DNA of 57,829 nucleotides from Acidobacteriota bacterium (GTDB lineage: Bacteria; Acidobacteriota; Terriglobia; Terriglobales; Acidobacteriaceae). Under the pieces are notes generated by a model that ran no database searches, was not told the origin of the DNA, and saw only the letters and a list, made by a program, of their open reading frames with translations. This document shows, in pieces, positions 36,734 to 52,519 of the stretch. The translations under genes and the position numbers were made by a program. The stretch's first letter is position 1, and each line of letters opens with the position of its first letter. The stretch is taken from the NCBI GenBank assembly GCA_003225075.1, contig QIAP01000078.1:1-57829 (forward strand), in the 5' to 3' direction.

Positions 36734-39196
36734 TTACGTTTTTGCCCGGAAGGCCAGCGCCAGCAACGTCTTTTGCTCGACTTCGTGTGCTTTCGCGGAT
36801 CCGGTCGCTGGGCTGGCGCTGGCGGAGCGCTTCACTGAAAATACGGGCCGGCTGCGGGATATCCGCCGCAATCTCGGCATTACATAGAAGAGTGCCCCCA
36901 TATTTGCTGGCTCCTCCTGTACCCATACGACCTCTTCCGCCGACGAGTAGCGGTCCAGTTCGGTTGTCAACTCGGCTTCAGGAAACGGATAGAGCTGTTC
37001 GAGAAAGACAATAGCTGTCGACCGATCTTTTCGCCTCTTGCGCTCTGCGCGCAACTCGTGACCGATCTTCCCTGTACAAATCAGAATGCGATTGGCGTCT
37101 GTGATTTCGGCGTCGGGAAGCATGCTCAGAAAACGCTGATGAGTGAAATCTTCGATAGGAGAAGATGCATCGGGATGCCGCAGCATACTCTTGGGAGTGA
37201 AAACTACCAGCGGCTTTCGCCAGGCGCGGAGGGCTTGCCGGCGCAGTAAATGGAAGTACTGGGCTGCGTTCGAAGGCTGGCAAATCTGGAAATTGTCCCT
37301 TGCTGCGAGCTGTAAAAAGCGTTCGATGCGGGCGCTCGAGTGCTCCGGGCCCTGGCCTTCAAAGCCATGGGGCAGGAGCAATCCGACCCCTGACAGCAGT
37401 CCCCACTTGTCCTCGCCGGCACTGATGAACTGGTCAATGATAGCCTGGGCAACATTGGCAAAATCGCCGAACTGCGCTTCCCACAGCACCAGCGCCTCAG
37501 GATAGTCGCGGCTATAGCCATATTCGAAACCAAGCACGCCGGCTTCGGAGAGGGTGGAATTATAAATCTCACAGCGTGCTTGATCTGGAGCAATGTGTTC
37601 GAGTGGTACGTATTCCTTCTCATCCTCAACGTCCGTGAGCACGGAGTGGCGCTGGTTAAAAGTTCCCCGTTTGGTATCCTGGCCGCTCAAGCGCACGGGA
37701 ATACCATGCTTCACCAGGCTGCCGAATGCCAGTGCTTCAGCCATGCCGTAGTCTACGGCGCGCTTCCCGGCGCCCATCTCGGCGCGCTGTTCAAGCAACT
37801 TCTTGACCTTGGGATGTATGTGGAAGTCCCCTGGATACGTCGTCAGCCTTTCTGTGATTTCGGTCAATTCTTGTGCTGGTACTCCAGTATCAACTTCATA
37901 TTCGCGTTTGTGGCAACCGCCCTTATAGTTGTTCCAGTAACGCGGCAATTCGCGCAAGGTAGGCTTCTTCTTGATTGAACTGGCATTTTTCTGCGCCGCT
38001 TCGTATTCGCTGCGAATTTGGTCGACCTTTGCTTGTACGTCTTCCGCGCCAATATCTTCGGAATAGATTTCCCACAGCGGCGGATGGTCCTTTATTGCCT
38101 TGTAAAGAAGCGGCTGAGTAACAGTGGGATCGTCTACCTCGCTGTGGCCATGGCGCCGGTAGCCAATCAAGTCGATTACCACATCACTGCCATAGGTGTA
38201 CCGGTATTCCAGCGCCATCCTCCCCACCCGCAGCACCGCGTCTACGTCTTCTCCATTCACATGAAATATTGGCACTGCCTGCCGCCGCGCAAGTTGCGCG
38301 GCAAATCGAGACGAGTGGAGTTCGTTGTAAGGTGTTGTGAAACCCAGCAGGTTGTTGACAATAACGTGCACCGTCCCGCCAACGGTGTAGCCTTTGAGAT
38401 CGGCGTAGTTGAGGGTCTCTGCGGTGATTCCTTGTCCGGCGAAAGCGGCGTCTCCGTGCACCAGTAGAGGAAGATATTTTCGCGAGCCGTCTTCACCGTT
38501 GCGGTCCTGCTTGGCTCGCGTGCGTCCAATCGTAACCGGATCGACTGCCTCGAGATGGCTGGGATTTGAAACCAGGTGGATATGAATCTTCGCGCCGCTG
38601 CGGGTAACGTATTCGCCGGTGGCGCCCATGTGGTATTTAACGTCGCCACCCCCCAGAACACTGCGCGGGTCCACATCTTCGAATCCGGCGAAGACTTCTT
38701 CTGGCGCGCGGCGCGCAACGTGTACGATCACGTTCAGGCGGCCGCGATGGCTCATGCCCATCACCAGCTCGACCGCGTCGTGCCGGCCAGCACCTTCAAG
38801 AATCTCATCCACTAACGGAAGCAGCGCCGTGACGCCTTCAAGTGAGAAGCGCTTACTGCCGAGATAACGTTGCTGCAGCACCTGTTCGAACAAGTCAGCC
38901 CGCACCAGCAGATCGAGGACGCGTTCCTTGTCGGCCGTCTCCTGTTCCGCTACAAACTCGCTCTCCATGTGTTCCTGAATCCAGCGGCGGCGCTCAGTTT
39001 CAGCGATGTGCATAAATTCCACGCCTATTGTGCCGCAGTAAATACGACGCGCTTCACGAGCGGGTTCGCCATCAATGTGGAGTTCCGATTGTGGCTGCGG
39101 GCGCAGAAGGCCTAAGGGGTCGAGATCGGCCTCAAAATATCCCCACTGGCGAAACATGTCGAAAACACGCTCGCGGTCGTTCGAGGTTACTTCCAT
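36734..39196 (-). CDS. sucA: 2-oxoglutarate dehydrogenase E1 component, N-terminally short
   Basis: 820 residues from the ATG at 39196, supported by GAGGGGG upstream; a Met 16 codons earlier is an alternative. Thiamine diphosphate binding is seen in GDAAFAGQGI, and the E1 core continues through VIDLIGYRRHGHSEVDDP and YGFEYGYSRDYPEALVLWEAQF. E. coli SucA is about 930 residues with an N-terminal segment that binds the E2 core. Here the sequence starts at the equivalent of residue 100, and the 150 bases upstream leave no room for it. No sucB or lpd is in the window. Confidence 0.88.
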   Translation of the reverse strand: MEVTSNDRERVFDMFRQWGYFEADLDPLGLLRPQPQSELHIDGEPAREARRIYCGTIGVEFMHIAETERRRWIQEHMESEFVAEQETADKERVLDLLVRADLFEQVLQQRYLGSKRFSLEGVTALLPLVDEILEGAGRHDAVELVMGMSHRGRLNVIVHVARRAPEEVFAGFEDVDPRSVLGGGDVKYHMGATGEYVTRSGAKIHIHLVSNPSHLEAVDPVTIGRTRAKQDRNGEDGSRKYLPLLVHGDAAFAGQGITAETLNYADLKGYTVGGTVHVIVNNLLGFTTPYNELHSSRFAAQLARRQAVPIFHVNGEDVDAVLRVGRMALEYRYTYGSDVVIDLIGYRRHGHSEVDDPTVTQPLLYKAIKDHPPLWEIYSEDIGAEDVQAKVDQIRSEYEAAQKNASSIKKKPTLRELPRYWNNYKGGCHKREYEVDTGVPAQELTEITERLTTYPGDFHIHPKVKKLLEQRAEMGAGKRAVDYGMAEALAFGSLVKHGIPVRLSGQDTKRGTFNQRHSVLTDVEDEKEYVPLEHIAPDQARCEIYNSTLSEAGVLGFEYGYSRDYPEALVLWEAQFGDFANVAQAIIDQFISAGEDKWGLLSGVGLLLPHGFEGQGPEHSSARIERFLQLAARDNFQICQPSNAAQYFHLLRRQALRAWRKPLVVFTPKSMLRHPDASSPIEDFTHQRFLSMLPDAEITDANRILICTGKIGHELRAERKRRKDRSTAIVFLEQLYPFPEAELTTELDRYSSAEEVVWVQEEPANMGALFYVMPRLRRISRSRPVFSVKRSASASPATGSAKAHEVEQKTLLALAFRAKT

Positions 39197-39439
39197 AACC
39201 AGCCCCCTCGAACTAGTCTCCGCCCTACTCTGTGGGATAGCCATATGTTCGTACTAGAATAATGGATGAGGGGCCTGTGGCGCGCGATTCACCCCGGCAT
39301 GCGCGGTTAATCAAGCCTTCCTGAAAACGATTCTCTCCGACCTCCAGTCCGGCTACAATACTCTGCCCAATGATCAGAGCCCCTGCGCCAGGCGCTTGTG
39401 GGTCGTGGTCTGGGACGGCTGCGCGCCGCCTGGAAAGCA

Positions 39440-42667: not shown

Positions 42668-43066
42668 CTATCCCATAGTGGTCGTGTGCTCAGGTTTGAT
42701 TTTGTACAACACCCGTACTTCGCCTGGCTGACCATAGGGATACTTGTCTACGCCCAAATACTTCTTGGCCATCTTGTCGATGTGCTCGTTGGCGCCCTGC
42801 TCGGTAATCTCTTGTACCTTGCCACGAATTTCAACATAGCGATAAGGATTATCGGGGTCCATGATAGCCAGCGCCACATTGGGATCGCGCCGCACATTAC
42901 GATCTTTCTGCCGGCCTCTTGCGGAATTGAAGATCACATGTTGGCCGTCATAGTCCACCCACACTGGCGTCACCTGCGGCCGCCCGTCCGGCATGATTGT
43001 ACCGAGGCTGGCGAATGCCTTCTTTTTAAACAGGTCTTGATATTTCTCTGGAATAGCTTGCGACAT
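42668..43066 (-). CDS. PPOX-class flavin/F420-dependent oxidoreductase
   Basis: 132 residues, a small split-barrel protein of the pyridoxamine 5'-phosphate oxidase fold. Landmarks are SLGTIMPDGRPQVTPVWVDY, ARGRQKDRNVRRDPNVALAI and the terminal EVRVLYKIKPE. This short class often uses F420 in actinobacteria but FMN elsewhere; cofactor is not decided by the sequence. AAGGAGG six bases before the ATG fixes the start. It lies downstream of the citrate-lyase operon end, separated by about 100 bases, so it may be a separate unit. Confidence 0.87.
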   Translation of the reverse strand: MSQAIPEKYQDLFKKKAFASLGTIMPDGRPQVTPVWVDYDGQHVIFNSARGRQKDRNVRRDPNVALAIMDPDNPYRYVEIRGKVQEITEQGANEHIDKMAKKYLGVDKYPYGQPGEVRVLYKIKPEHTTTMG

Positions 43067-43165: not shown

Positions 43166-44728
43166 TTATCCAACCTGCCAAACCGTGTCCAGAACCCTCC
43201 CATCCACCCATTTCACCACCGCCACAGGTCGATCTCCCAGCTTTGGCTTTGCCGGTCTGCCGCCGCAGATTTGCTCTACTTCCGCCTTGATCTCCTGAAT
43301 TGATCGCACGGGCAGGTTTGAACCCTTCACCGCGTCCAGCAAATCCTGCCGCTGGGGATTGATCGCGATCCCGCGTTCTGTGACAACTACATCAATCAAT
43401 TCTCCCGGCCCGGTGAGGGTCGTCACTTCATCCACGATCACCGGAATCCGATCGCGGAAGGACGGTACCGCCAGGATCGTGCATTTAGCAAATAAACAGT
43501 TCTGCCATCCCCCAATGCCATGCAGCAAACGACCATCGGAGTGCGTTACCACATTTCCGTTAAAGTTCACGTCCACTTCGGTAGCGCCAAGCACAACCGC
43601 GTCCACCATGGACGCAAAATTCCCTTTCCCATGATAGTTGTATGAAGTAAACGGCGACGTCGGCACGTGCCGCGGATCGCTGGCAATCGACTTCACCGCA
43701 TCCAGATCAAACGTTTGCCCGTCAAGGATGTAGTCGGTCAATCCCTCGTGCAGCATCTCCACCAGATATCGTGTGGACCCGCCGCGCACAAAGCGCGCCT
43801 TCACGCCATCTTCTTTCATCATGCGACGAAGGTAATCGACGAACGCCAGCGCAATGCCTCCCGCGCCCGCCTGGAACGAAAATCCATTACGCATGATTCC
43901 CGCCTCGCGCATAAACCGCGCCACCAGTTCCGCAATCCGCAATCGATCGGGAGAGCGGGTGATTTGTGTGGTGCCAGAAACGATCTTTGCCGGATCGCCG
44001 ATCGAGTCCACTTCTACAACGTAATCCACGTTATTACCTTGAATCTGCCAGGGAATGCAGGGGAACGGGACCAGGTTGTCGGTGACTACGATCACGGTGT
44101 CGGCATACATCGAATCCGCAAGCGCGAAGCCTAGCGAGCCGCAGGCCGACTTCCCGTGCGAGCCGTCTGCGTTGCCGAAAGCGTCCGCTGTAGGTGCGGC
44201 GATGATCGCAATATCGATGTGCACCTCACCATCCTGAATTGCTTGCCAACGTCCGCCGTGCGATCGCAGCACACCCGTGCCGCGCATTTTTCCTTGGCTG
44301 CAATAGTCGCCAAGAGGCCCATTCATGCTGCCTTCGATGTGGTGAATAACGCCCGACTGCATTAAATCAATTGCACTCTTCTGCGAAGGAAAGGATGCGC
44401 TGGGAAACCAGGTCAAATCTCTTATTCCGAGCTTTGCCGCTGCCTCAAGCGCCATCAGCGCGACGCGGTCACCATCCCGCAGATGATGATGATTAGAAAT
44501 CACCATGCCGTCGCGCAGCCCGCCCTTCTTGAGTGCCGTTGTCAAATCAGGCAGTCGCTTATCGCCGTTGTCGGGATAATCTTTATTCGACCGCAGGGGT
44601 GGCGCCGCTTTGCGCCCGCGTACTTGATATTTTCCAACTCCGAGATAAGGAATCTGCGGCCTGCCATTCACTACGCTGGGGACTTTGCGTCCCGCCGCAT
44701 TGTGGGCCAGTTCGACTCTCTCGCTCAT
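43166..44728 (-). CDS. citF: Citrate lyase alpha subunit (acyl-carrier transferase)
   Basis: 520 residues. CitF swaps the acetyl group on the lyase carrier protein for citrate. The two-half CoA-transferase fold is visible: GGLRDGMVISNHHHLRDGD near the start, then GSMNGPLGDYCSQGKMRGTG, and VDEVTTLTGPGELIDVVVTE in the C-terminal half. Length matches CitF (about 505-520). It is the last gene of the six-gene operon, 24 bases after the CitD-CitE fusion. No citC, citX or citG for carrier priming is in the window. The physiological substrate may not be citrate, given the partners. Confidence 0.9.
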   Translation of the reverse strand: MSERVELAHNAAGRKVPSVVNGRPQIPYLGVGKYQVRGRKAAPPLRSNKDYPDNGDKRLPDLTTALKKGGLRDGMVISNHHHLRDGDRVALMALEAAAKLGIRDLTWFPSASFPSQKSAIDLMQSGVIHHIEGSMNGPLGDYCSQGKMRGTGVLRSHGGRWQAIQDGEVHIDIAIIAAPTADAFGNADGSHGKSACGSLGFALADSMYADTVIVVTDNLVPFPCIPWQIQGNNVDYVVEVDSIGDPAKIVSGTTQITRSPDRLRIAELVARFMREAGIMRNGFSFQAGAGGIALAFVDYLRRMMKEDGVKARFVRGGSTRYLVEMLHEGLTDYILDGQTFDLDAVKSIASDPRHVPTSPFTSYNYHGKGNFASMVDAVVLGATEVDVNFNGNVVTHSDGRLLHGIGGWQNCLFAKCTILAVPSFRDRIPVIVDEVTTLTGPGELIDVVVTERGIAINPQRQDLLDAVKGSNLPVRSIQEIKAEVEQICGGRPAKPKLGDRPVAVVKWVDGRVLDTVWQVG

Positions 44729-44752: not shown

Positions 44753-45961
44753 CTACTGCTTCGTGGCTTTCGCGCGCGTCACCAGTTTCTGCGCCCGCTG
44801 CACCACCGGAGGGTCGATCATCTTCGATCCCAGACTCACCACCCCCAGCCCACGCTGCTGCGCCTCTTCGAATGCCGCAACAATCTTCTCCGCCTTCTCA
44901 ACTTCTGCTGGGGACGGCGAAAATGCCGCGTGCACCACAGGTATTTGCGAAGGATGAATACATCCCATCCCTTCAAATCCTAGCGCGCGGGAATTTTCTC
45001 CCCACTGCCGCAATGCTTCCATATCGGCTACGTCACTAAACACAGAATCAATCGCCTGAACTCCCGCCGCCCGCGAAGCGTTCACGATTCGCGACCGCGC
45101 GTACAGCGATTCTCGTCCGTCCACAGTCCTCGCCACCCCCAAATCAGCGGTGTAATCCTCAAGTCCGATCGTAAGCGCGACCACATTTGGACTTGCCGCG
45201 ACGATAGCGAATGCATTCTCGATACCAAGCGCCGACTCGATAATTGGCATCAACCAGATCGCGCGATTGATATCCTGACGCGCTTTAAGTTCACCGATCA
45301 TGCGATCCACTTCCGCGATTTGTCCCGGATGCTCCACTTTCGGCACCAACACCAAGTCCGGCTGCTCCGGAATTAATTCCACCAAATCCTCAAGCCCCAG
45401 CGGCAACTGGTTAATGCGCAACATACGCTCACAGTCGCCAAAATCGACTGCCCGCAGTGCGTTCCGCACCAGGATTCGTGCCGCATCTTTCTCCGCGTGA
45501 TGGACCGAATCTTCCAGATCGAGAATGATCGCGTCCGGCTGATGAAGACTGGCATTGATGAAGTATTTGGGTTCCGATCCAGGCAAATACAGCCGGGAGC
45601 GTCGCAAGCGATCACGAGCCGAACTAGCGGGTAATGCCACTTTTTCGGGCATGGCCTTTTTCCCTGAGCCCAGTCCAGCTCGCTTGACTGCGGTCTCGAT
45701 GCGCGATGAGATCACGAACGGCAACGCGCCTTCATCATGGATCGCGACTCGAGCATGTTTCACCCCCAACGTTTCCAACACCTGCCGCGTCTGCGCCAGA
45801 ATGGATGTTCCGTAATACGCCGAGACGCGAGATTCGAGAGTAATTTCCAGGCCACCGGAATCGCTCGGCTCGAGCGACACGTGCAGGTCGGAGCGGACAT
45901 CCTTGCCCCAGTGTCCAGCTTCGGCCGCCTGCGCCGTTCTTTTTTCCTTAGCGCCGCTCAT
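44753..45961 (-). CDS. citE: CitD-CitE fusion: acyl-carrier domain joined to a citryl-ACP-lyase-type domain
   Basis: 402 residues. The first 115 align with CitD: LEITLESRVSAYYGTSILAQ, VLETLGVKHARVAI, HDEGALPFVISSRIETAV. The rest is CitE/HpcH-like: RRSRLYLPGSEPKYF, DAIILDLEDSVHHAEKDAAR with metal-binding residues, and LMPIIESALGI. CitD and CitE are normally separate small and medium subunits, so this is a gene fusion. In known CitD the cofactor-carrying Ser sits in ES(S/G)D; the aligned residues here read VRSD, so that Ser is Arg with a Ser one place later. Carrier function is therefore uncertain. Confidence 0.86.
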   Translation of the reverse strand: MSGAKEKRTAQAAEAGHWGKDVRSDLHVSLEPSDSGGLEITLESRVSAYYGTSILAQTRQVLETLGVKHARVAIHDEGALPFVISSRIETAVKRAGLGSGKKAMPEKVALPASSARDRLRRSRLYLPGSEPKYFINASLHQPDAIILDLEDSVHHAEKDAARILVRNALRAVDFGDCERMLRINQLPLGLEDLVELIPEQPDLVLVPKVEHPGQIAEVDRMIGELKARQDINRAIWLMPIIESALGIENAFAIVAASPNVVALTIGLEDYTADLGVARTVDGRESLYARSRIVNASRAAGVQAIDSVFSDVADMEALRQWGENSRALGFEGMGCIHPSQIPVVHAAFSPSPAEVEKAEKIVAAFEEAQQRGLGVVSLGSKMIDPPVVQRAQKLVTRAKATKQ

Positions 45962-45997: not shown

Positions 45998-47185
45998 CTA
46001 CTTCAATTTCTTCAGAATCGCATCCGTCATCTGCGTCGTGCTCGCCGCGCCTTTGCTGATCGACTTTGCGCCTCCCGGAATCCGCATCATGTCGTATGTT
46101 CGTACTTTCCCTTCCTTTACGACTGCCGCAATCGCGTCCCGAATCTGTTTCGCCTTTTCCATTTCGCCGACATGCTCCAGCATCATGACCGCCGATAGAA
46201 GCATTGCGATCGGATTCACGATCGGAGGATTCAACTCCGCATATTTGGGCGCAGATCCATGCGTGGGCTCAAACACCGCCACCTCGTCGCCGATGTTGCC
46301 CGACGCAGCAAACCCCAGCCCTCCAACCAATCCCGCGAATGCATCCGAAATCACGTCCCCAAACAAATTCGACGCCACCACCACTCCATAGTCCTCAGGA
46401 TTCTTGGTTAGCCACATGGTTTGCGCATCAATGTTGGTGGACCACAGCGCAATCCCTGGATACTCTTTTGCCACGTTCTTGGCTTCGTCTTCCATCATGC
46501 CCGAGGTTTCACGCAGCACGTTCGGCTTTTCACAAATCGTCACTGACTTGTAGCCAAACTTGTTGGCCCACTCGAACCCAGCCTTGCTGATTTTGCGCGC
46601 CGCATTGCGCGTGATAATCCGTACTGATATTGCGAGGTCTGGTCCAGGAGTGCTGGAAAATGGCTTGAATTTGGGATGCGTTGCCAGCGCGGTACGCACT
46701 CCATCCGGCGGATTCGTCCACTCCACGCCAGCATAGAGTCCTTCCGTATTCTGCCGAAATACAACCACATTAACAAATGGCTCTTCAAAGCCCCCGTCTG
46801 GCTTCTTGCGAATAAAATTCAGCGGATTGCCGGGAAACGCAATGCAGGGACGAACGCAGGTATCAAGATTAAATTTCTGCCGCATAGACACGATGGGACT
46901 GAAATATGAATAGCCCTTGCCACGCAGTTCCGGCTTTAATTCTTCATCGGCCTCTTTCTTCGGCTTGGAAGTGATCGCGCCAAACAGACCCAGCTTGTGC
47001 TTTGCCAGCAAGTCGATGGTCCGTTGCGGTAGCGCGTTGCCTTCGTTGATCCAGCACTCCCAGCCGATGTCCGCGTGAACGTACTCGGCATCAAATCCCA
47101 CCGCCTTCAATACCCGCAATGCCTCGGGCAGAACCTGATTGCCGATTCCATCCCCCGGCATCGTGACTACCGTATGTTTCGCCAT
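45998..47185 (-). CDS. Isocitrate/isopropylmalate-family oxidative decarboxylase with a divergent substrate loop
   Basis: 395 residues. It has TMPGDGIGNQVLPEALRVL, RQNTEGLYAGVEW (as in NAD-dependent isocitrate dehydrogenases), and NLFGDVISDAFAGL. The loop that selects substrate in isocitrate dehydrogenase (SxNxxxR) reads SPIVSMR: Ser and Arg are kept, Asn is Ile. The isopropylmalate-type RRELGLFANLRP is absent. So it is neither a plain isocitrate nor isopropylmalate enzyme by motif; homoisocitrate or a related 3-hydroxy-acid is a reasonable guess given the Lys4-like neighbour. Fourth gene of the operon. Confidence 0.85.
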   Translation of the reverse strand: MAKHTVVTMPGDGIGNQVLPEALRVLKAVGFDAEYVHADIGWECWINEGNALPQRTIDLLAKHKLGLFGAITSKPKKEADEELKPELRGKGYSYFSPIVSMRQKFNLDTCVRPCIAFPGNPLNFIRKKPDGGFEEPFVNVVVFRQNTEGLYAGVEWTNPPDGVRTALATHPKFKPFSSTPGPDLAISVRIITRNAARKISKAGFEWANKFGYKSVTICEKPNVLRETSGMMEDEAKNVAKEYPGIALWSTNIDAQTMWLTKNPEDYGVVVASNLFGDVISDAFAGLVGGLGFAASGNIGDEVAVFEPTHGSAPKYAELNPPIVNPIAMLLSAVMMLEHVGEMEKAKQIRDAIAAVVKEGKVRTYDMMRIPGGAKSISKGAASTTQMTDAILKKLK

Positions 47186-47255: not shown

Positions 47256-49205
47256 TTATCCCAAGCCCAACCGCCGAGCTACCAGATTCTCCACCCCGTG
47301 GGCGATCACCAGCGATTGCGGCACGCTTCCCAAAGCCGGGAATGAAAACTTCTCGTCGCGCCATGAGATCGTGCTCGAAGTGAAATCAATGTCGATCTCA
47401 TCTCCAGGAATAATGGTCTTCTCTTTACCTGCGATCTCTCCAGGGAACTGCTCGCGCAACCGCTTTACCAACTCCGGAACTTCTATACAAAGGAATCCAT
47501 TATTAAAGGCGTTGCGCAAATAGGTCTGAGAAAAGCTCCCCGCAATCACCAGCGGAATTCCCTTGGCTTTCAGCGCCGTCACTGCCTGCTCACGACTGGA
47601 CCCAGTGCCGAAGTTATAGCAGCTCACGATCACATCACCTGCGCGGGTACGCTCGGCAAATTGTGGATCATAATTTTCCATCACGACCTTGGCCATCATT
47701 TCCGGTGTTACATCGTCGCGGTACGTGTAGTCCTTGCCGTAAATCGCATCGGTGTTGACGTTGTCCTGTGGCATGAAGACCAATCGGCCCTTCAGGCGCT
47801 CAGGAAATCCCCTCAAAATCTCAACTTTCTCTGCTGCTGTGCCGCCGTCCGCTGCAAATTCCGTGTAGCTCCGTTGCGGTGCGTGATCCCCCAGTTCGTG
47901 CGGGCCGCGAATGTAACCAGCCACCGCGGACGCGGCCACGACCTCCGGACTGGCGAGATAACACCGTGCATCGCGCGATCCCATGCGCCCTTTGAAATTA
48001 CGGTTGGTCGCCGAGATACCAACTTCGCCTGGCTCTAGCAGACCCACACCGAGACCGATGCAAGGCCCGCAACCCGCGGGAAGCGGATGGGCACCTGCAG
48101 CCAGCAGCGTCTGCCAGATGCCATGCTTCTCAGCCTCCTCTTGCACCCATTTGCTGGCAGCGCCCAAATAAAACTCCACTCCCGGCGCGACCTTTTTCCC
48201 TTTCACAACTTCTGCCGCCGCCGCCAAGTCCTCGAGTCGCGAGTTCACGCACGAAAGCAAGTAAGCCTTCTGAATCGTGATCTTCTTCTTTTCCATCGCC
48301 GCCAACGACTCCATCACCTGAACGGTGTCGGGGCCCGAGACGTGCGGCGTAACATCCCGAAGATTAAGCACAATGCGGGCGGCATACACTGCATCCGAAT
48401 CCGGCCGCGGCGGATTCTTTTGCCAGTTCTCGACGTCCTTATCGGTGAAGCGTTCGATTCCCATCGCTGCCAAGCGCCGCTTCACACCTTTAAGATATTC
48501 AATCGTGATTTCGTCCATTGGGAACCAGCCCACCAGCGGTCCCCACTCGGTCGTCATGTTCGAGATGGAGAGCCGCGCATCCATCGACAGGCTGGCTACT
48601 CCCGGTCCAGTGAACTCGACTGCCGAGTTCAGCACCTCATCGTGGTTGTAGAGACCGCACAAAGTGATGATGATGTCTTTCCCGGTTGCTCCGTCAGGCA
48701 GTCGCCCTTCGAGCACCACCTGGACGGACCGCGGTATCTGCCACCAGAACTCTCCGGTTGCCCAGACGGCTGCCGCGTCAGTGCGAACAATTGGGGTGCC
48801 CACGGCACCAATGGCCCCATACATATTCGAATGCGAGTCCGAAGCCACTACGAAAGATCCCGGTACTGCATATCCGCGCTCCACCATGATCTGGTGACCA
48901 ATGCCCGAGCCTGCGGGATAGAAATCAACTCCGTGCTGCTTGGCGAATGCCTCTATGGCGCGATATTTGGCCTGGTTAGATTCGTCTTTGTTTTGAATGT
49001 CGTGATCGAGTGCAAAAACAAGCTGTTTGGGATCGTGAATCTTCTTCGCGCCGATGCCCTGGAATTTCTTCATCACCGCCGAAGTGTTGTCGTGGGTCAT
49101 TACATGATGCGGTCGAATCGAGACGAAGTCTCCCGTGCGCAAGGGCCGCTTTGGACCCTCGCTCAGATGCGATTGCGCGATCTTTTCAACAATAGTCTGG
49201 CCCAT
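47256..49205 (-). CDS. Aconitase-superfamily hydratase, Lys4/homoaconitase-like fused form
   Basis: 649 residues from the ATG at 49205. Iron-sulfur ligands are in LLSCVNSR and AGCGPCIGLG. The swivel domain is fused in the same chain and carries YNFGTGSSREQAVTALKAKG, like fungal homoaconitase and unlike the GCGSSREHA of LeuD. The active-site ends with SQTYLRNAFNNGF. Canonical aconitases are about 750-900 residues, and LeuC and LeuD are usually separate; this size and swivel loop fit homoaconitase best. It is preceded by the PrpD gene with a 7-base gap. Substrate is inferred, not shown. Confidence 0.85.
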   Translation of the reverse strand: MGQTIVEKIAQSHLSEGPKRPLRTGDFVSIRPHHVMTHDNTSAVMKKFQGIGAKKIHDPKQLVFALDHDIQNKDESNQAKYRAIEAFAKQHGVDFYPAGSGIGHQIMVERGYAVPGSFVVASDSHSNMYGAIGAVGTPIVRTDAAAVWATGEFWWQIPRSVQVVLEGRLPDGATGKDIIITLCGLYNHDEVLNSAVEFTGPGVASLSMDARLSISNMTTEWGPLVGWFPMDEITIEYLKGVKRRLAAMGIERFTDKDVENWQKNPPRPDSDAVYAARIVLNLRDVTPHVSGPDTVQVMESLAAMEKKKITIQKAYLLSCVNSRLEDLAAAAEVVKGKKVAPGVEFYLGAASKWVQEEAEKHGIWQTLLAAGAHPLPAGCGPCIGLGVGLLEPGEVGISATNRNFKGRMGSRDARCYLASPEVVAASAVAGYIRGPHELGDHAPQRSYTEFAADGGTAAEKVEILRGFPERLKGRLVFMPQDNVNTDAIYGKDYTYRDDVTPEMMAKVVMENYDPQFAERTRAGDVIVSCYNFGTGSSREQAVTALKAKGIPLVIAGSFSQTYLRNAFNNGFLCIEVPELVKRLREQFPGEIAGKEKTIIPGDEIDIDFTSSTISWRDEKFSFPALGSVPQSLVIAHGVENLVARRLGLG

Positions 49206-49212
49206 AATCAAC

Positions 49213-50652
49213 TCACTTCTTCTTGGGATTCGTGCGAGTCTTCTTCGCTCGCACATCCGCCTTCAGCAGCCCCATGAGATTGCTCACCGAGTCGACTTTC
49301 TCAAGGTTCCAAATAGCATCCTTCACCTTCTTCTCAGCGGTGGGCGACAGCACGCCTCCCGCTAGCGCGGCGAACTTCTCTTCAATTTCTTGATCGGTCA
49401 GCGGATTACGCGGGTCGCCTTTTGGATAATCAAGTTGCTTGCTGAACGACCGCCCGTCCGTAGTCATGATATTTACGATGACACGCTGCAGTGCCGGGAA
49501 AACCTTTTCGATCTCTGGATCCGCCACCACTTCCACCTTCTGAAGTTGGGCGCGGATCTTAGGGTCCATGATCTTTTCCATAGTGAACTGCCCGGGCGTG
49601 ACTTGTCTTTCTGCCAGCGCCGCCGCGATCACATAAGGCAGCGAATGGTCCGCCGTTTCTTTACTGCGTGGATCGTATTTGCTGGGATCGGAAAGTATAT
49701 CGGCCGCACGCGCCAGCGACCGGATCTGAATCTTCTCCACGTTATCTGGCTGCAGGTCGTTCTGCTTTACCAAGTCGAGTACTGCGGAAATGGGCGTATG
49801 TGTCAACGCTTCCGTGGGGAACGCTTTCATTCCACATTGGGTAATGCGCCACGAGTCACCAAGCCCATCAGTGAGCACATTGAGTTTCCACTCTGGGCCA
49901 AGACAGTGCGCCAGTCCTTCTTTCCCATCCACTACGTGTTCGGGCCCGGTGTAGCCTTTCTCAGCCAGGAGCGCTGCCAGGACACCGCTTTGCGTCGCCA
50001 TCGGATCTACGGTATTTTTCATCATGGTGAGCTTGCCCGCGGTGACCGCGCCCAGCGTGGCGTGACGGCTGGCCGAGATTCCAATGGCATGCTGGATCTG
50101 CTCCCATCCAAGGTGCAGCGCCCGTCCCGCGACGATCGGTGAAACAAATGCCGTCAGCGTGGCGTGATGCCAGCCCCGCTCACGGATACCCGGAAACGCC
50201 GCCTCGCAAAAACGCATTTCAAATTCATGCCCCAGCACCAGACCGGCGATCAACTCTTTTCCATCGCTCTTCGCGCGTTCACAACAAGCAAGTGCCGCAG
50301 GGAAAATATCGGATGGATGCGAAGGATCCTGCTTCCAATAAATATCGTTGTAGTCCATGCAGCGGATCATCAGCGCATTAGCCAGCGAAGCCGAGACCGG
50401 ATCCATCTTCTTTCCTGTGCCAATCACGGTCGCCGGGCCGTTTCCGGCGATTTCGTCGAGCACTTCGAGCGCAATCTTCACATCGTGCTGCTGGTACCCC
50501 CCAAGGGCACAGCCTACTGAATCCAACAGAAACCGCTTCGCTTGATACACCGCGTCTTGAGAGACTTGTTTGTAGTCGAGCACCGCCACCCAGCGCGCCA
50601 TCTTTGCCGTGACCGTATCTTTCGACCCAGAAATTGGTTTCATACCCGACAA
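49213..50652 (-). CDS. MmgE/PrpD-family dehydratase
   Basis: 479 residues. MmgE/PrpD enzymes dehydrate 2-methylcitrate or related tricarboxylates; cis-aconitate decarboxylase shares the fold. Family landmarks are YQAKRFLLDSVGCALGGY, ANALMIRCMDYNDIY, and KAFPTEALTHTPISAVLDL. The C-terminus ends with a Lys-rich tail. Start: TTG at 50652 has AGGGGAA upstream, while ATG 50643 lacks one, so the TTG is used here. It lies between the HD protein and the homoaconitase-like gene in the operon. Confidence 0.87.
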   Translation of the reverse strand: MSGMKPISGSKDTVTAKMARWVAVLDYKQVSQDAVYQAKRFLLDSVGCALGGYQQHDVKIALEVLDEIAGNGPATVIGTGKKMDPVSASLANALMIRCMDYNDIYWKQDPSHPSDIFPAALACCERAKSDGKELIAGLVLGHEFEMRFCEAAFPGIRERGWHHATLTAFVSPIVAGRALHLGWEQIQHAIGISASRHATLGAVTAGKLTMMKNTVDPMATQSGVLAALLAEKGYTGPEHVVDGKEGLAHCLGPEWKLNVLTDGLGDSWRITQCGMKAFPTEALTHTPISAVLDLVKQNDLQPDNVEKIQIRSLARAADILSDPSKYDPRSKETADHSLPYVIAAALAERQVTPGQFTMEKIMDPKIRAQLQKVEVVADPEIEKVFPALQRVIVNIMTTDGRSFSKQLDYPKGDPRNPLTDQEIEEKFAALAGGVLSPTAEKKVKDAIWNLEKVDSVSNLMGLLKADVRAKKTRTNPKKK

Positions 50653-50665
50653 GTCTTCCCCTGGC

Positions 50666-51223
50666 TCATTTCACTTTTATGTTTCTAGGATTCTTAAAAG
50701 GCAAAAATGCCATGAAATCGGCATGGTGGACGATGTAAGCCTCAGTAGTGCGCTTCATCAGATCGCCCTCGGCGGCGTGCGCGGCGATGATGTGGCAGAC
50801 CGCGTCGGGCACGCCGCACTCCAGCGCCAATGCGACGCCGGTAAAAGGATGACGCAGTGCCTCGCCGCGCTCACTCTGCCGGCTCTTTCCGTCGGGGCCA
50901 AGTTCGTACTCCAGCAACTTGCCCACGTCGGCGAGGATTGCACCCGCAATCACTGTATCCATATCGATTGGCAGGGAACGTCCCATGAATTCCTGCATGG
51001 CCTCGGCGCTATGACGCGCGATGTGCACCACACAACGCTTATGTTCCATGAATGTAATTGGACAATTAGGCACCAGCAGCGTGAACGGAATATGGTTGAG
51101 GTCATCGGCCTTCAGCGGACTGCGCTCAAGCGCCTTGATCCAGGTCTCGGTGACCTGCTCTCGCAATCGTGCGTCCTTGATCCACTGAATCTCCGGCCAC
51201 AGCCGTTGGACAGCCTCGCGCAT
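50666..51223 (-). CDS. HD-domain-like protein with a degenerate HD dyad
   Basis: 185 residues; TGGAGG eight bases before the ATG at 51223 selects this start. The HD superfamily fold is suggested by an early HIARHSAEAM, the central GAILADVGKLLEYE and later HPFTGVALALE and IIAAHAAEGD. In active HD hydrolases the centre reads HDxGK; here it is ADVGK, so one metal ligand is missing. The protein may bind nucleotide or act as a regulator rather than a hydrolase. It is the first gene of the operon and could control it. Confidence 0.72.
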   Translation of the reverse strand: MREAVQRLWPEIQWIKDARLREQVTETWIKALERSPLKADDLNHIPFTLLVPNCPITFMEHKRCVVHIARHSAEAMQEFMGRSLPIDMDTVIAGAILADVGKLLEYELGPDGKSRQSERGEALRHPFTGVALALECGVPDAVCHIIAAHAAEGDLMKRTTEAYIVHHADFMAFLPFKNPRNIKVK

Positions 51224-51448
51224 GCTTCCGGCCTCCACTAGAAAACCATCTAGCTTATCGTGCGGGGCGTGGGGGCGTCGAGGGGGACCAAGGAAGGTCG
51301 CATCCGGCAGGAGGTCTAGGCTGTCTCTATTCGCTTCAGTGCGGGTAACCTGCCATGTGCGTTGTCCCTATCTAACGCTCTGGGTGCACTTTAGTTACTT
51401 GTACTCATTGGCGAAGGCTTCAAAAATATACTCTGACAAAGAGGGCCC

Positions 51449-51931: not shown

Positions 51932-52519
51932 CTAGGCCAGTTGGTAATAGCAGCCTGCTGTGCCCGCGCAGGCCCGGCAGAGTACTCTACCGTCGCGACG
52001 GACTTCACGGCGGAAATTAATTCCTTCCCCGCAAACCTCACACACAACCCGGTCACCCTTGTATCCCGGAAACTCTTCTGGCGGCAATTCCACTTTTACC
52101 CACTGCGTCGAAAATAGATCGTCATCCGCAATTTCGCGATATGCCGCCATCTGCTGCTGATTCTTATTCTCAATTTCCGGATGTATCTGGCGCGCCAAAG
52201 TTTTTGACGACTCCTTGGCAGCCACGCGAATCGCCTTGCCTGTACTGACGTCCACGAATGTAGCCGCCACCTTTCCCCAATCGCGAAACTTCAGGGCACG
52301 CTTCCCCAGGCGGCAGCCAGTGACGACGGCAACAGCGTCAGTGGCGCAACGGTCGATTTCGACGAAGGTGACGAGGCGCTTGCGGTCTTTACCGCGAGGA
52401 TCATCAATGCCCAATTTCTCCAACCCGAGCATTGCCATGCGCACACCGAGAATCTGCCCCGCGCAAAGGTGGCCATGGGCCTGCTCGGCGTCATGAAGAT
52501 ATTCATCGAGGGATTTCAT
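51932..52519 (-). CDS. FmdE-domain protein with C-terminal zinc finger
   Basis: 195 residues. The FmdE domain (about 10-150) has HGHLCAGQILGVRMA and VEIDRCATDAVAVVTGC with the conserved His and Cys residues. A C-terminal CEVCGEGINFRREVRR...CRAC forms a zinc knuckle. FmdE-type proteins accompany molybdenum formylmethanofuran or formate dehydrogenases and act in molybdenum or iron-sulfur handling. No other formylmethanofuran dehydrogenase gene is nearby, so it may serve a formate dehydrogenase elsewhere. It is the only such gene here. Confidence 0.88.
   Translation of the reverse strand: MKSLDEYLHDAEQAHGHLCAGQILGVRMAMLGLEKLGIDDPRGKDRKRLVTFVEIDRCATDAVAVVTGCRLGKRALKFRDWGKVAATFVDVSTGKAIRVAAKESSKTLARQIHPEIENKNQQQMAAYREIADDDLFSTQWVKVELPPEEFPGYKGDRVVCEVCGEGINFRREVRRDGRVLCRACAGTAGCYYQLA

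Follow-up and report, generated by a model that had tools for sequence, protein, structure and literature searches.

The textbook examples of enzymes that use a CoA-like group tethered to a carrier protein are citrate lyase and malonate decarboxylase. A gene from an Acidobacteriota bacterium (GenBank assembly GCA_003225075.1) encodes the carrier and lyase parts of a citrate-lyase-type enzyme in one chain and has arginine at the site of the serine that holds this group, which raises the questions of whether such an enzyme carries a bound cofactor at all and what it cleaves. The window analyzed here is the whole 57,829-nucleotide stretch of contig QIAP01000078.1 (positions 1 to 57,829, forward strand). 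The gene and its parts are as follows.

44753..45961, minus strand: citDE fusion gene (P0001), 402 aa, ATG start, with a CitD-like domain, a linker and a CitE-like lyase
45677..45895, minus strand: CitD/MdcC-like domain, residues 23-95 (PF06857, 68.9 bits)
45887..45895, minus strand: R23-S24-D25 motif at the site of the canonical cofactor Ser (codons CGC TCC GAC)
44951..45601, minus strand: CitE-like HpcH/HpaI lyase domain, residues 121-337 (PF03328, 180.6 bits)

The window protein is a CitD-like domain fused to a CitE-like lyase, with Arg at the cofactor-Ser site. Residues 23-95 belong to the ACP/MdcD carrier family PF06857 (E value, 4.6e-19; Pfam cut-off, 25.1 bits). The original prediction correctly placed CitD and CitE in one chain but gave CitD 115 residues, which is too long, as the match ends at residue 95 and is followed by a linker. 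Its reading of the aligned cofactor site as VRSD was exact. Ser14, Gly15 and Asp16 of E. coli CitD align with Arg23, Ser24 and Asp25 of citDE, and the NCBIfam CitD model TIGR01608 is concordant (profile position 15 is citDE residue 24). The sequence V22-R23-S24-D25 replaces E-S-(S/G)-D, and Arg23 occupies the place of the cofactor Ser in the E/Q-S-(S/G)-D pattern. The Gly-to-Arg loop is usually three residues longer in the fused form (6 residues versus the canonical 3 in 125 of 154 sequences, by pattern count), so that the Ser lies "one place on" only when the alignment is anchored at Asp.

The full-length CitDE AlphaFold model has a mean pLDDT of 95.6, and the CitD domain folded alone has a mean pLDDT of 88.4. 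Foldseek placed elongation factor G before the malonate decarboxylase carrier MdcC, and a second structural alignment placed MdcC first by a small margin (5vit_C; Z score of 9.5, rmsd of 2.5, 82 aligned residues; next row, Z score of 9.1). Because this margin is narrow, the Pfam family match is the stronger evidence for carrier identity. Designed beta-trefoils ranked above MdcC in a PDB sequence search with the CitD profile were discarded as chance matches.

The fused family is far larger than is visible from the window alone. A scan of 200 genomes of the same family matched the citDE protein in 61, which on reading the table comprise 51 with the fused gene (at least 65% identity, a few in pieces) and 10 with unfused lyases or weak fragments; the unfused relatives gave no CitD match. 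In the tree, Terriglobia and Candidatus Sulfotelmatobacter, both Acidobacteriota, are the closest named relatives, and the loci fetched from close relatives carry RSD in 30/30 cases. Across the phylum, the CitD family was found in 40 of 297 genomes, with 36 fused (for a few, frame length was the sole criterion or a contig end truncates the gene), 3 containing a standalone CitD and 1 containing another standalone protein, which adjoins a CitG-family gene and was assigned by context to malonate decarboxylase. A sample of the phylum of a Bacteroidales carrier yielded the CitD family in 28 of 296 genomes, all of which were classed as fused from their frames of 377 to 455 aa. A scan of species genomes produced 439 confirmed loci, and the best 80 were taken. 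Their phyla include Acidobacteriota, Planctomycetota, Ignavibacteriota, Bacteroidota, Gemmatimonadota, Krumholzibacteriota, Chloroflexota, Cloacimonadota, Neomarinimicrobia, Calditrichota and others. The CitD domain is retained in all 80, the query itself having included this domain.

The motif is RSD in 72 of the 80 loci and KSD in 4, with SSD, ASD, RSE and NND in 1 each. Among 154 distinct fused sequences (two of them fragments), it is RSD in 143, KSD in 5, SSD in 2 (L155 and L158) and RSE, ASD and NND in 1 each, with 1 unaligned. The cofactor-Ser column is Arg or Lys in 149/154 sequences, and Ser is present at the next position (Ser24) in 152/154. Standalone CitDs read (E/Q)-S-(S/G)-D and have the cofactor Ser in 11 of 11 cases (E. 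coli, three Acidobacteriota genomes and seven plasmid records). The replacement of Ser by Arg or Lys is a fixed trait, and the RSD counts in the close relatives and the fused set rule out a one-off loss or a sequencing error. Such a cross-genome alignment had been proposed in the original prediction as a check for an equivalent Ser; the aligned site bears out the loss, whereas the neighboring Ser24 is kept. An apparently motif-less member in genome G710 (L177/L188) is explained by a reading-frame break: in L188, a frame change close to the beginning of citDE puts the RSD stretch into another frame, and the sequence is the one entered as unaligned. In a Calditrichaeota member (L128:5968-7119), N-N-D replaces R-S-D, and no CitF was found within about 6 kb downstream; decay or a different function is possible there.

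The citDE gene of the window lies within a set of genes on the same strand.

43166..44728, minus strand: citF-like CoA/ACP transferase, 520 aa, 24 bases downstream of citDE (PF04223, 433.9 bits)
45998..47185, minus strand: isocitrate/homoisocitrate-dehydrogenase-like gene, 395 aa (PF00180)
47256..49256, minus strand: homoaconitase-like gene, 666 aa (TIGR00139)
49213..50652, minus strand: MmgE/PrpD-family gene, 479 aa (PF03972, PF19305)
50666..51238, minus strand: HD-domain protein, 190 aa (TIGR00277 HDIG, 32.7 bits, cut-off 27.6; no Pfam match)

The four upstream genes, in the order dehydrogenase-like, homoaconitase-like, PrpD-like and HD, are separated by small gaps or overlap; the PrpD-like gene, for which TTG is the listed start codon, runs into the 5' end of the homoaconitase-like gene. 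The citF product is a member of PF04223 and scores 484.6 bits against TIGR01584, below the cut-off of 501.45. Just upstream of the module, positions 51932-52519 encode an FmdE domain and a DksA-type zinc finger in one protein. Elsewhere in the window, positions 42668-43066 encode an F420-dependent PPOX-type oxidoreductase (TIGR03618, 124.3 bits; cut-off, 79).

CitF co-occurs with citDE in 71 of the 80 loci, and IDH-, aconitase-, HD- and PrpD-like genes are found in 29, 27, 25 and 19 of them, respectively, many of the loci being short. The module of HD, PrpD-like, homoaconitase-like, homoisocitrate-dehydrogenase-like, citDE and citF genes is present, whole or in part, in about ten phyla. A survey of these loci and 40 further stretches (120 in total, with some genomes possibly repeated) found at least one labelled module gene in 111; the HD gene is present in 40 of the 120, many of which are incomplete. 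The 111 loci comprise 28 with PrpD and the homoaconitase-like gene of about 660 aa, 8 with an aconitase-like gene of about 600 aa and HacA/HacB-like genes, 53 with neither combination, and 22 with one part only (PrpD in 11, HacA/B-like in 4, the ~600-aa gene in 3, the ~660-aa gene in 3, and PrpD with a short aconitase piece in 1). PrpD and the ~600-aa aconitase type occur together in none of the 111, so they look like alternatives for one step.

The CitG family produces the precursor of the prosthetic group of citrate lyase and malonate decarboxylase. Whole genomes were searched with profiles for CitX (PF03802), CitG (PF01874) and CitC (PF08218), and the known CitX and CitG families were found in 0 of 117 genomes with a fused gene, the window genome included. 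These carriers are 36 of a first set of 46 genomes, 31 of a second set of 35, and 50 from the genomes of the 80 loci. The first set gave no CitX or CitG in any of its 46 genomes, 10 of which are without the fused gene. The second set gave CitX in 3/35 and CitG in 4/35 genomes, and its 31 fused carriers, some assigned by frame length alone, had neither. Both genes are present in 3 of 3 same-phylum genomes with a standalone CitD, and the fourth CitG genome is the malonate-decarboxylase-like one. The E. coli control matched in every CitX and CitG search, and completeness of 90% or more with contamination of 5% or less holds for 44/46 and 28/35 genomes of the first and second sets, respectively. 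The original remark that the operon has no citX or citG is confirmed, and neither gene was found elsewhere in the window genome; a location of genes of these two known families outside the operon was rejected accordingly.

CitC scored above 200 bits in 3 of 49 genomes, namely, only those with a standalone CitD, in which CitC, D, E, F, X and G all lie together in one operon. Partial matches of 20 to 29 bits were obtained in 19 further genomes, 16 of them above the low cut-off of 20.9; that of the window genome is 21.2 bits. These are probably other nucleotidyltransferases because they span about half of the profile and because the same search was also positive in 7 of 14 named control genomes. 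With E. coli CitC, CitG and CitX as queries, there were no matches in the 80 loci. Clustering of the genes of the 80 loci gave no sign of a transferase gene hidden between citDE and citF: every cluster shared by more than 11 loci is a module gene, with most clusters unannotated, and what lies between citDE and citF in the 11 listed loci is short and variable. The sole transferase candidates seen are genes of about 100 aa near citDE with a nucleotidyltransferase-like GS motif, recognized by eye (L088:5132-5461, L089:4546-4875 and L107:4681-4980), which are probably stray MNT-type genes.

These data bear on the option that the Ser one place on is used, with Ser24 bearing the usual prosthetic group or a relative of it and with enzymes other than those of the CitX and CitG type attaching it, for example, the HD protein of the module. 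The near-universal retention of Ser24, an Asp25 retained as in canonical CitD, the recurrence of the HD gene across the surveyed loci, and the small nucleotidyltransferase-like genes would all suit it. We nevertheless regard this option as unlikely, given the lack of CitG in all 117 fused-gene genomes searched, the Arg or Lys at the cofactor-Ser site, the position of the small nucleotidyltransferase-like genes outside the 25 commonest clusters of the 80 loci (most clusters being unannotated) and the Asn at the Ser24 position in L128. Alignment and genome content have thus weakened the option without removing the conservation that speaks for it.

The lyase part belongs to the HpcH/HpaI family PF03328 and scores 267.2 bits against the CitE model TIGR01588, below its cut-off of 443.4. 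R182, E242 and D269, which we take to be the catalytic positions of CitE/HpcH-HpaI lyases, are invariant in 74 sequences. Two other positions were compared across 151 fused sequences, 10 canonical CitEs and 10 unfused lyases. Position 205 is Leu in 150/151 fused sequences and Arg in 10/10 canonical CitEs, and none of the 10 unfused lyases has Arg there. Position 336 is His in 151/151 fused and 10/10 unfused sequences, versus Asn in 8, His in 1 and Ser in 1 of the canonical CitEs. The five PDB lyases with a printed alignment, among 13 matched (two malyl-CoA lyases, CLYBL and two called citrate lyase), have His at 336 and no Arg at 205 as judged by eye, and Foldseek placed the CitDE model closest to malyl-CoA lyase and CLYBL. 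At both positions, fused CitE agrees with lyases that act on free CoA thioesters, and activity on free thioesters is predicted from these residues. The free-CoA lyases CLYBL, malyl-CoA lyase and RipC/Ccl, which share the non-Arg residue at 205 and His at 336 where printed, are the nearest solved structures; to our knowledge, they have no CitD domain and no CitF partner.

A maximum likelihood tree was built from 96 sequences, comprising 76 fused (the window and L077-L156, duplicates removed), 10 canonical and 10 unfused. Among the canonical records, Lelliottia L196 was unused, Klebsiella L192 served for CitD only, and Limosilactobacillus L195 was without CitF. Fused CitE forms a single clade on one side of a branch with support of 100/99, and canonical CitE forms another (99/93); the two are jointly separated from the unfused lyases (98/97), several of which are long-branched. 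Provided that the root falls within the unfused lyases, canonical CitE is the sister group of fused CitE, which then represents a citrate-lyase branch rather than a CoA lyase that gained a carrier.

The enzyme as a whole resembles the canonical citrate lyase CitDEF of E. coli, Klebsiella and Leuconostoc in having CitD-, CitE- and CitF-homologous parts encoded by adjacent genes. It differs in the fusion of CitD to CitE, the Ser-to-Arg/Lys replacement, the lack of recognizable CitX and CitG and of a full-length CitC, and altered residues at CitE 205/336 and CitF 362-363 and 408-412. CitF position 363 is Tyr in 91/92 sequences versus Ala in 9/9 canonical ones, and positions 408 and 410 are Trp in 91/92 and Asn in 90/92, where canonical CitF has His and Asp in 9/9. 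These changes would fit a different acyl substrate or a different way of holding CoA.

We infer that CitDE and CitF probably form a citrate-lyase-type enzyme without covalent 2'-(5''-phosphoribosyl)-3'-dephospho-CoA, using free CoA instead. The original prediction leaned the same way, and the genome content, the residues at the cofactor site and the free-CoA-type residues of CitE all support it; as far as genome content is concerned, the proposal of no covalent cofactor and free CoA is well supported. With acetyl-CoA or a different acyl-CoA as the donor, CitF would transfer CoA to the tricarboxylate, the CitE domain would cleave the free (homo)citryl-CoA to a 2-oxo acid and acetyl-CoA, and acetyl-CoA would cycle as a soluble co-substrate. 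Three observations count against the use of free CoA: the conservation of Ser24 exceeds the need of a purely structural bridge, the two SSD members retain Ser at the cofactor site, and partial CitC matches exceed the low family cut-off in 16 of the 49 genomes, including that of the window.

The CitD domain would be retained as a fused bridge joining both active sites, as MdcC does in malonate decarboxylase. That system, MdcACDE, shares with the present one the MdcC fold and the combination of a transferase, a carrier and a C-C-cleaving enzyme. In the malonate decarboxylase structure (PMC5534430), MdcC links transferase and decarboxylase, its prosthetic group is attached at Ser25, and Ser25 lies at a loop tip about 10 Å from the modelled CoA ribose; in MdcD-MdcE the 3' phosphate of CoA is exposed, and malonyl-CoA is accepted. 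The systems differ in that MdcC is modified on Ser25 and works with an unrelated decarboxylase instead of a lyase. By analogy, the conserved Arg or Lys at the former Ser site could grip a phosphate of free CoA. That the CitD domain is instead a vestigial leftover beside a lyase that acts alone is very unlikely: the missing known cofactor genes would agree with it, but 13 CitD-domain positions are invariant in 18 diverse sequences, the domain persists throughout the 80 loci (found with a query that contained it), and CitF accompanies it in most of them.

The neighboring genes and the altered CitF bear on what such an enzyme, working with free CoA, would cleave. The homoaconitase-like gene scores 781.6 bits against TIGR00139, above the cut-off of 529.9. 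The best PDB sequence match of the dehydrogenase is homoisocitrate dehydrogenase 3asj; in NCBIfam its top matches are AksF2 (274.4 bits) and AksF (250.3 bits), with 16 of 16 matches under the cut-off. The PrpD-like protein has its best PDB sequence matches in IRG1-like proteins, IDS epimerase and cis-aconitate decarboxylase, followed by PrpD. Beyond the module, the window genome has one citrate synthase, a long aconitase (994-aa frame), a LeuC-like gene and an aconitase-family gene of 686 aa; a citrate synthase was detected in 21 of 24 sampled genomes. Downstream of citF by about 4 kb, on the same strand, positions 36734-39244 encode an 836-aa 2-oxoglutarate-dehydrogenase-type E1 (PF16870), which could be a 2-oxoadipate enzyme.

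As a tentative reading, the enzyme may be a cofactor-free homocitrate lyase, with the Arg/Lys CoA clamp, that ends an alpha-aminoadipate front end running backward, in a CO2-consuming breakdown of lysine or aminoadipate. In such a route 2-oxoadipate would be carboxylated to homoisocitrate, isomerized by a separate hydratase and dehydratase, and then cleaved, homocitrate yielding 2-oxoglutarate and acetate via free homocitryl-CoA. The likeness to the alpha-aminoadipate front end (homoaconitase and homoisocitrate dehydrogenase) lies in the TIGR00139 aconitase and the nearest-PDB dehydrogenase; the difference is that the window genes sit by a lyase, and the direction of homocitrate cleavage is what we infer. 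Fungal homoaconitases interconvert only homoaconitate and homoisocitrate, and homocitrate is dehydrated by aconitases (PMC3556520). Three of four Cloacimonadota loci (L107, L111 and L120, not L119) have a gene with an AlaDh_PNT_N domain just upstream of citDE, which we label lysine-oxoglutarate-reductase-like. A saccharopine dehydrogenase is encoded in L111 (PF16653, 272 bits), with a 65% identical gene in L107 and a 44% identical gene in L209. The lysine link, present in 4 of 120 loci, is suggestive only. Together, the separate dehydratase and hydratase genes, the changed CitF site and the saccharopine-type genes of Cloacimonadota suggest that homocitrate is slightly more likely than citrate as the substrate.

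Citrate itself, cleaved in the ordinary citrate lyase reaction with free CoA as part of a partial reverse TCA or citrate-use route, is possible but doubtful. It is in keeping with the 41 to 43% identity between the window CitF and the CitF of the three standalone operons, with aconitase- and IDH-like enzymes within the module, and with the frequency of citrate synthase in the sampled genomes. It sits less well with the long aconitase that the window genome already has beyond that of the module, the apparent division of dehydration and hydration between two module enzymes, the Trp and Asn of CitF 408/410 in place of His and Asp, and a module aconitase scoring above the homoaconitase cut-off. 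Two-step citrate cleavage via free citryl-CoA, the likeness here, also occurs in the ATP-dependent citryl-CoA synthetase/citryl-CoA lyase route of Hydrogenobacter. That pair differs in its kinship, being related to ATP-citrate lyase (PMC9560492).

An improbable substrate is a methyl-branched or C5 acid (2-methylcitrate or citramalate), which the PrpD-like enzyme would dehydrate. The PrpD-family gene does belong to the module, the methylcitrate cycle also has a two-enzyme isomerization logic, the three-subunit architecture is shared with clostridial citramalate lyase, and some Bacteroidales loci contain epimerase-like and carboxyltransferase genes of the propionate-metabolism type. Against this, the PrpD-like protein scores only 71 to 96 bits where the PrpD models have cut-offs of 458 to 950, and no methylisocitrate-lyase-type gene was recognized in the loci, in which most neighbor clusters are unannotated. 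In the Bacteroidales loci L115, L121 and L139, citDE is preceded by an epimerase-like gene and a carboxyltransferase (both profile-tested in L115). Genes resembling OadB/OadG and biotin carriers were also recognized by eye ahead of citDE, as was a dipeptidase-like one behind citF, a neighborhood hinting at amino-acid fermentation.

Among the matches listed in open-licence literature, at the level of titles and abstract openings, none describes a fused CitDE, a cofactor-free citrate lyase or a homocitrate lyase. If true, a large branch of the family in which the tether was dropped and the carrier kept would reveal a role of the carrier besides carrying. Family models annotate these genes as subunits of citrate lyase, making it tempting to predict citrate cleavage or a reverse TCA cycle for many uncultured phyla; were homocitrate the substrate, such predictions would be wrong, and a route of lysine breakdown would have been overlooked.
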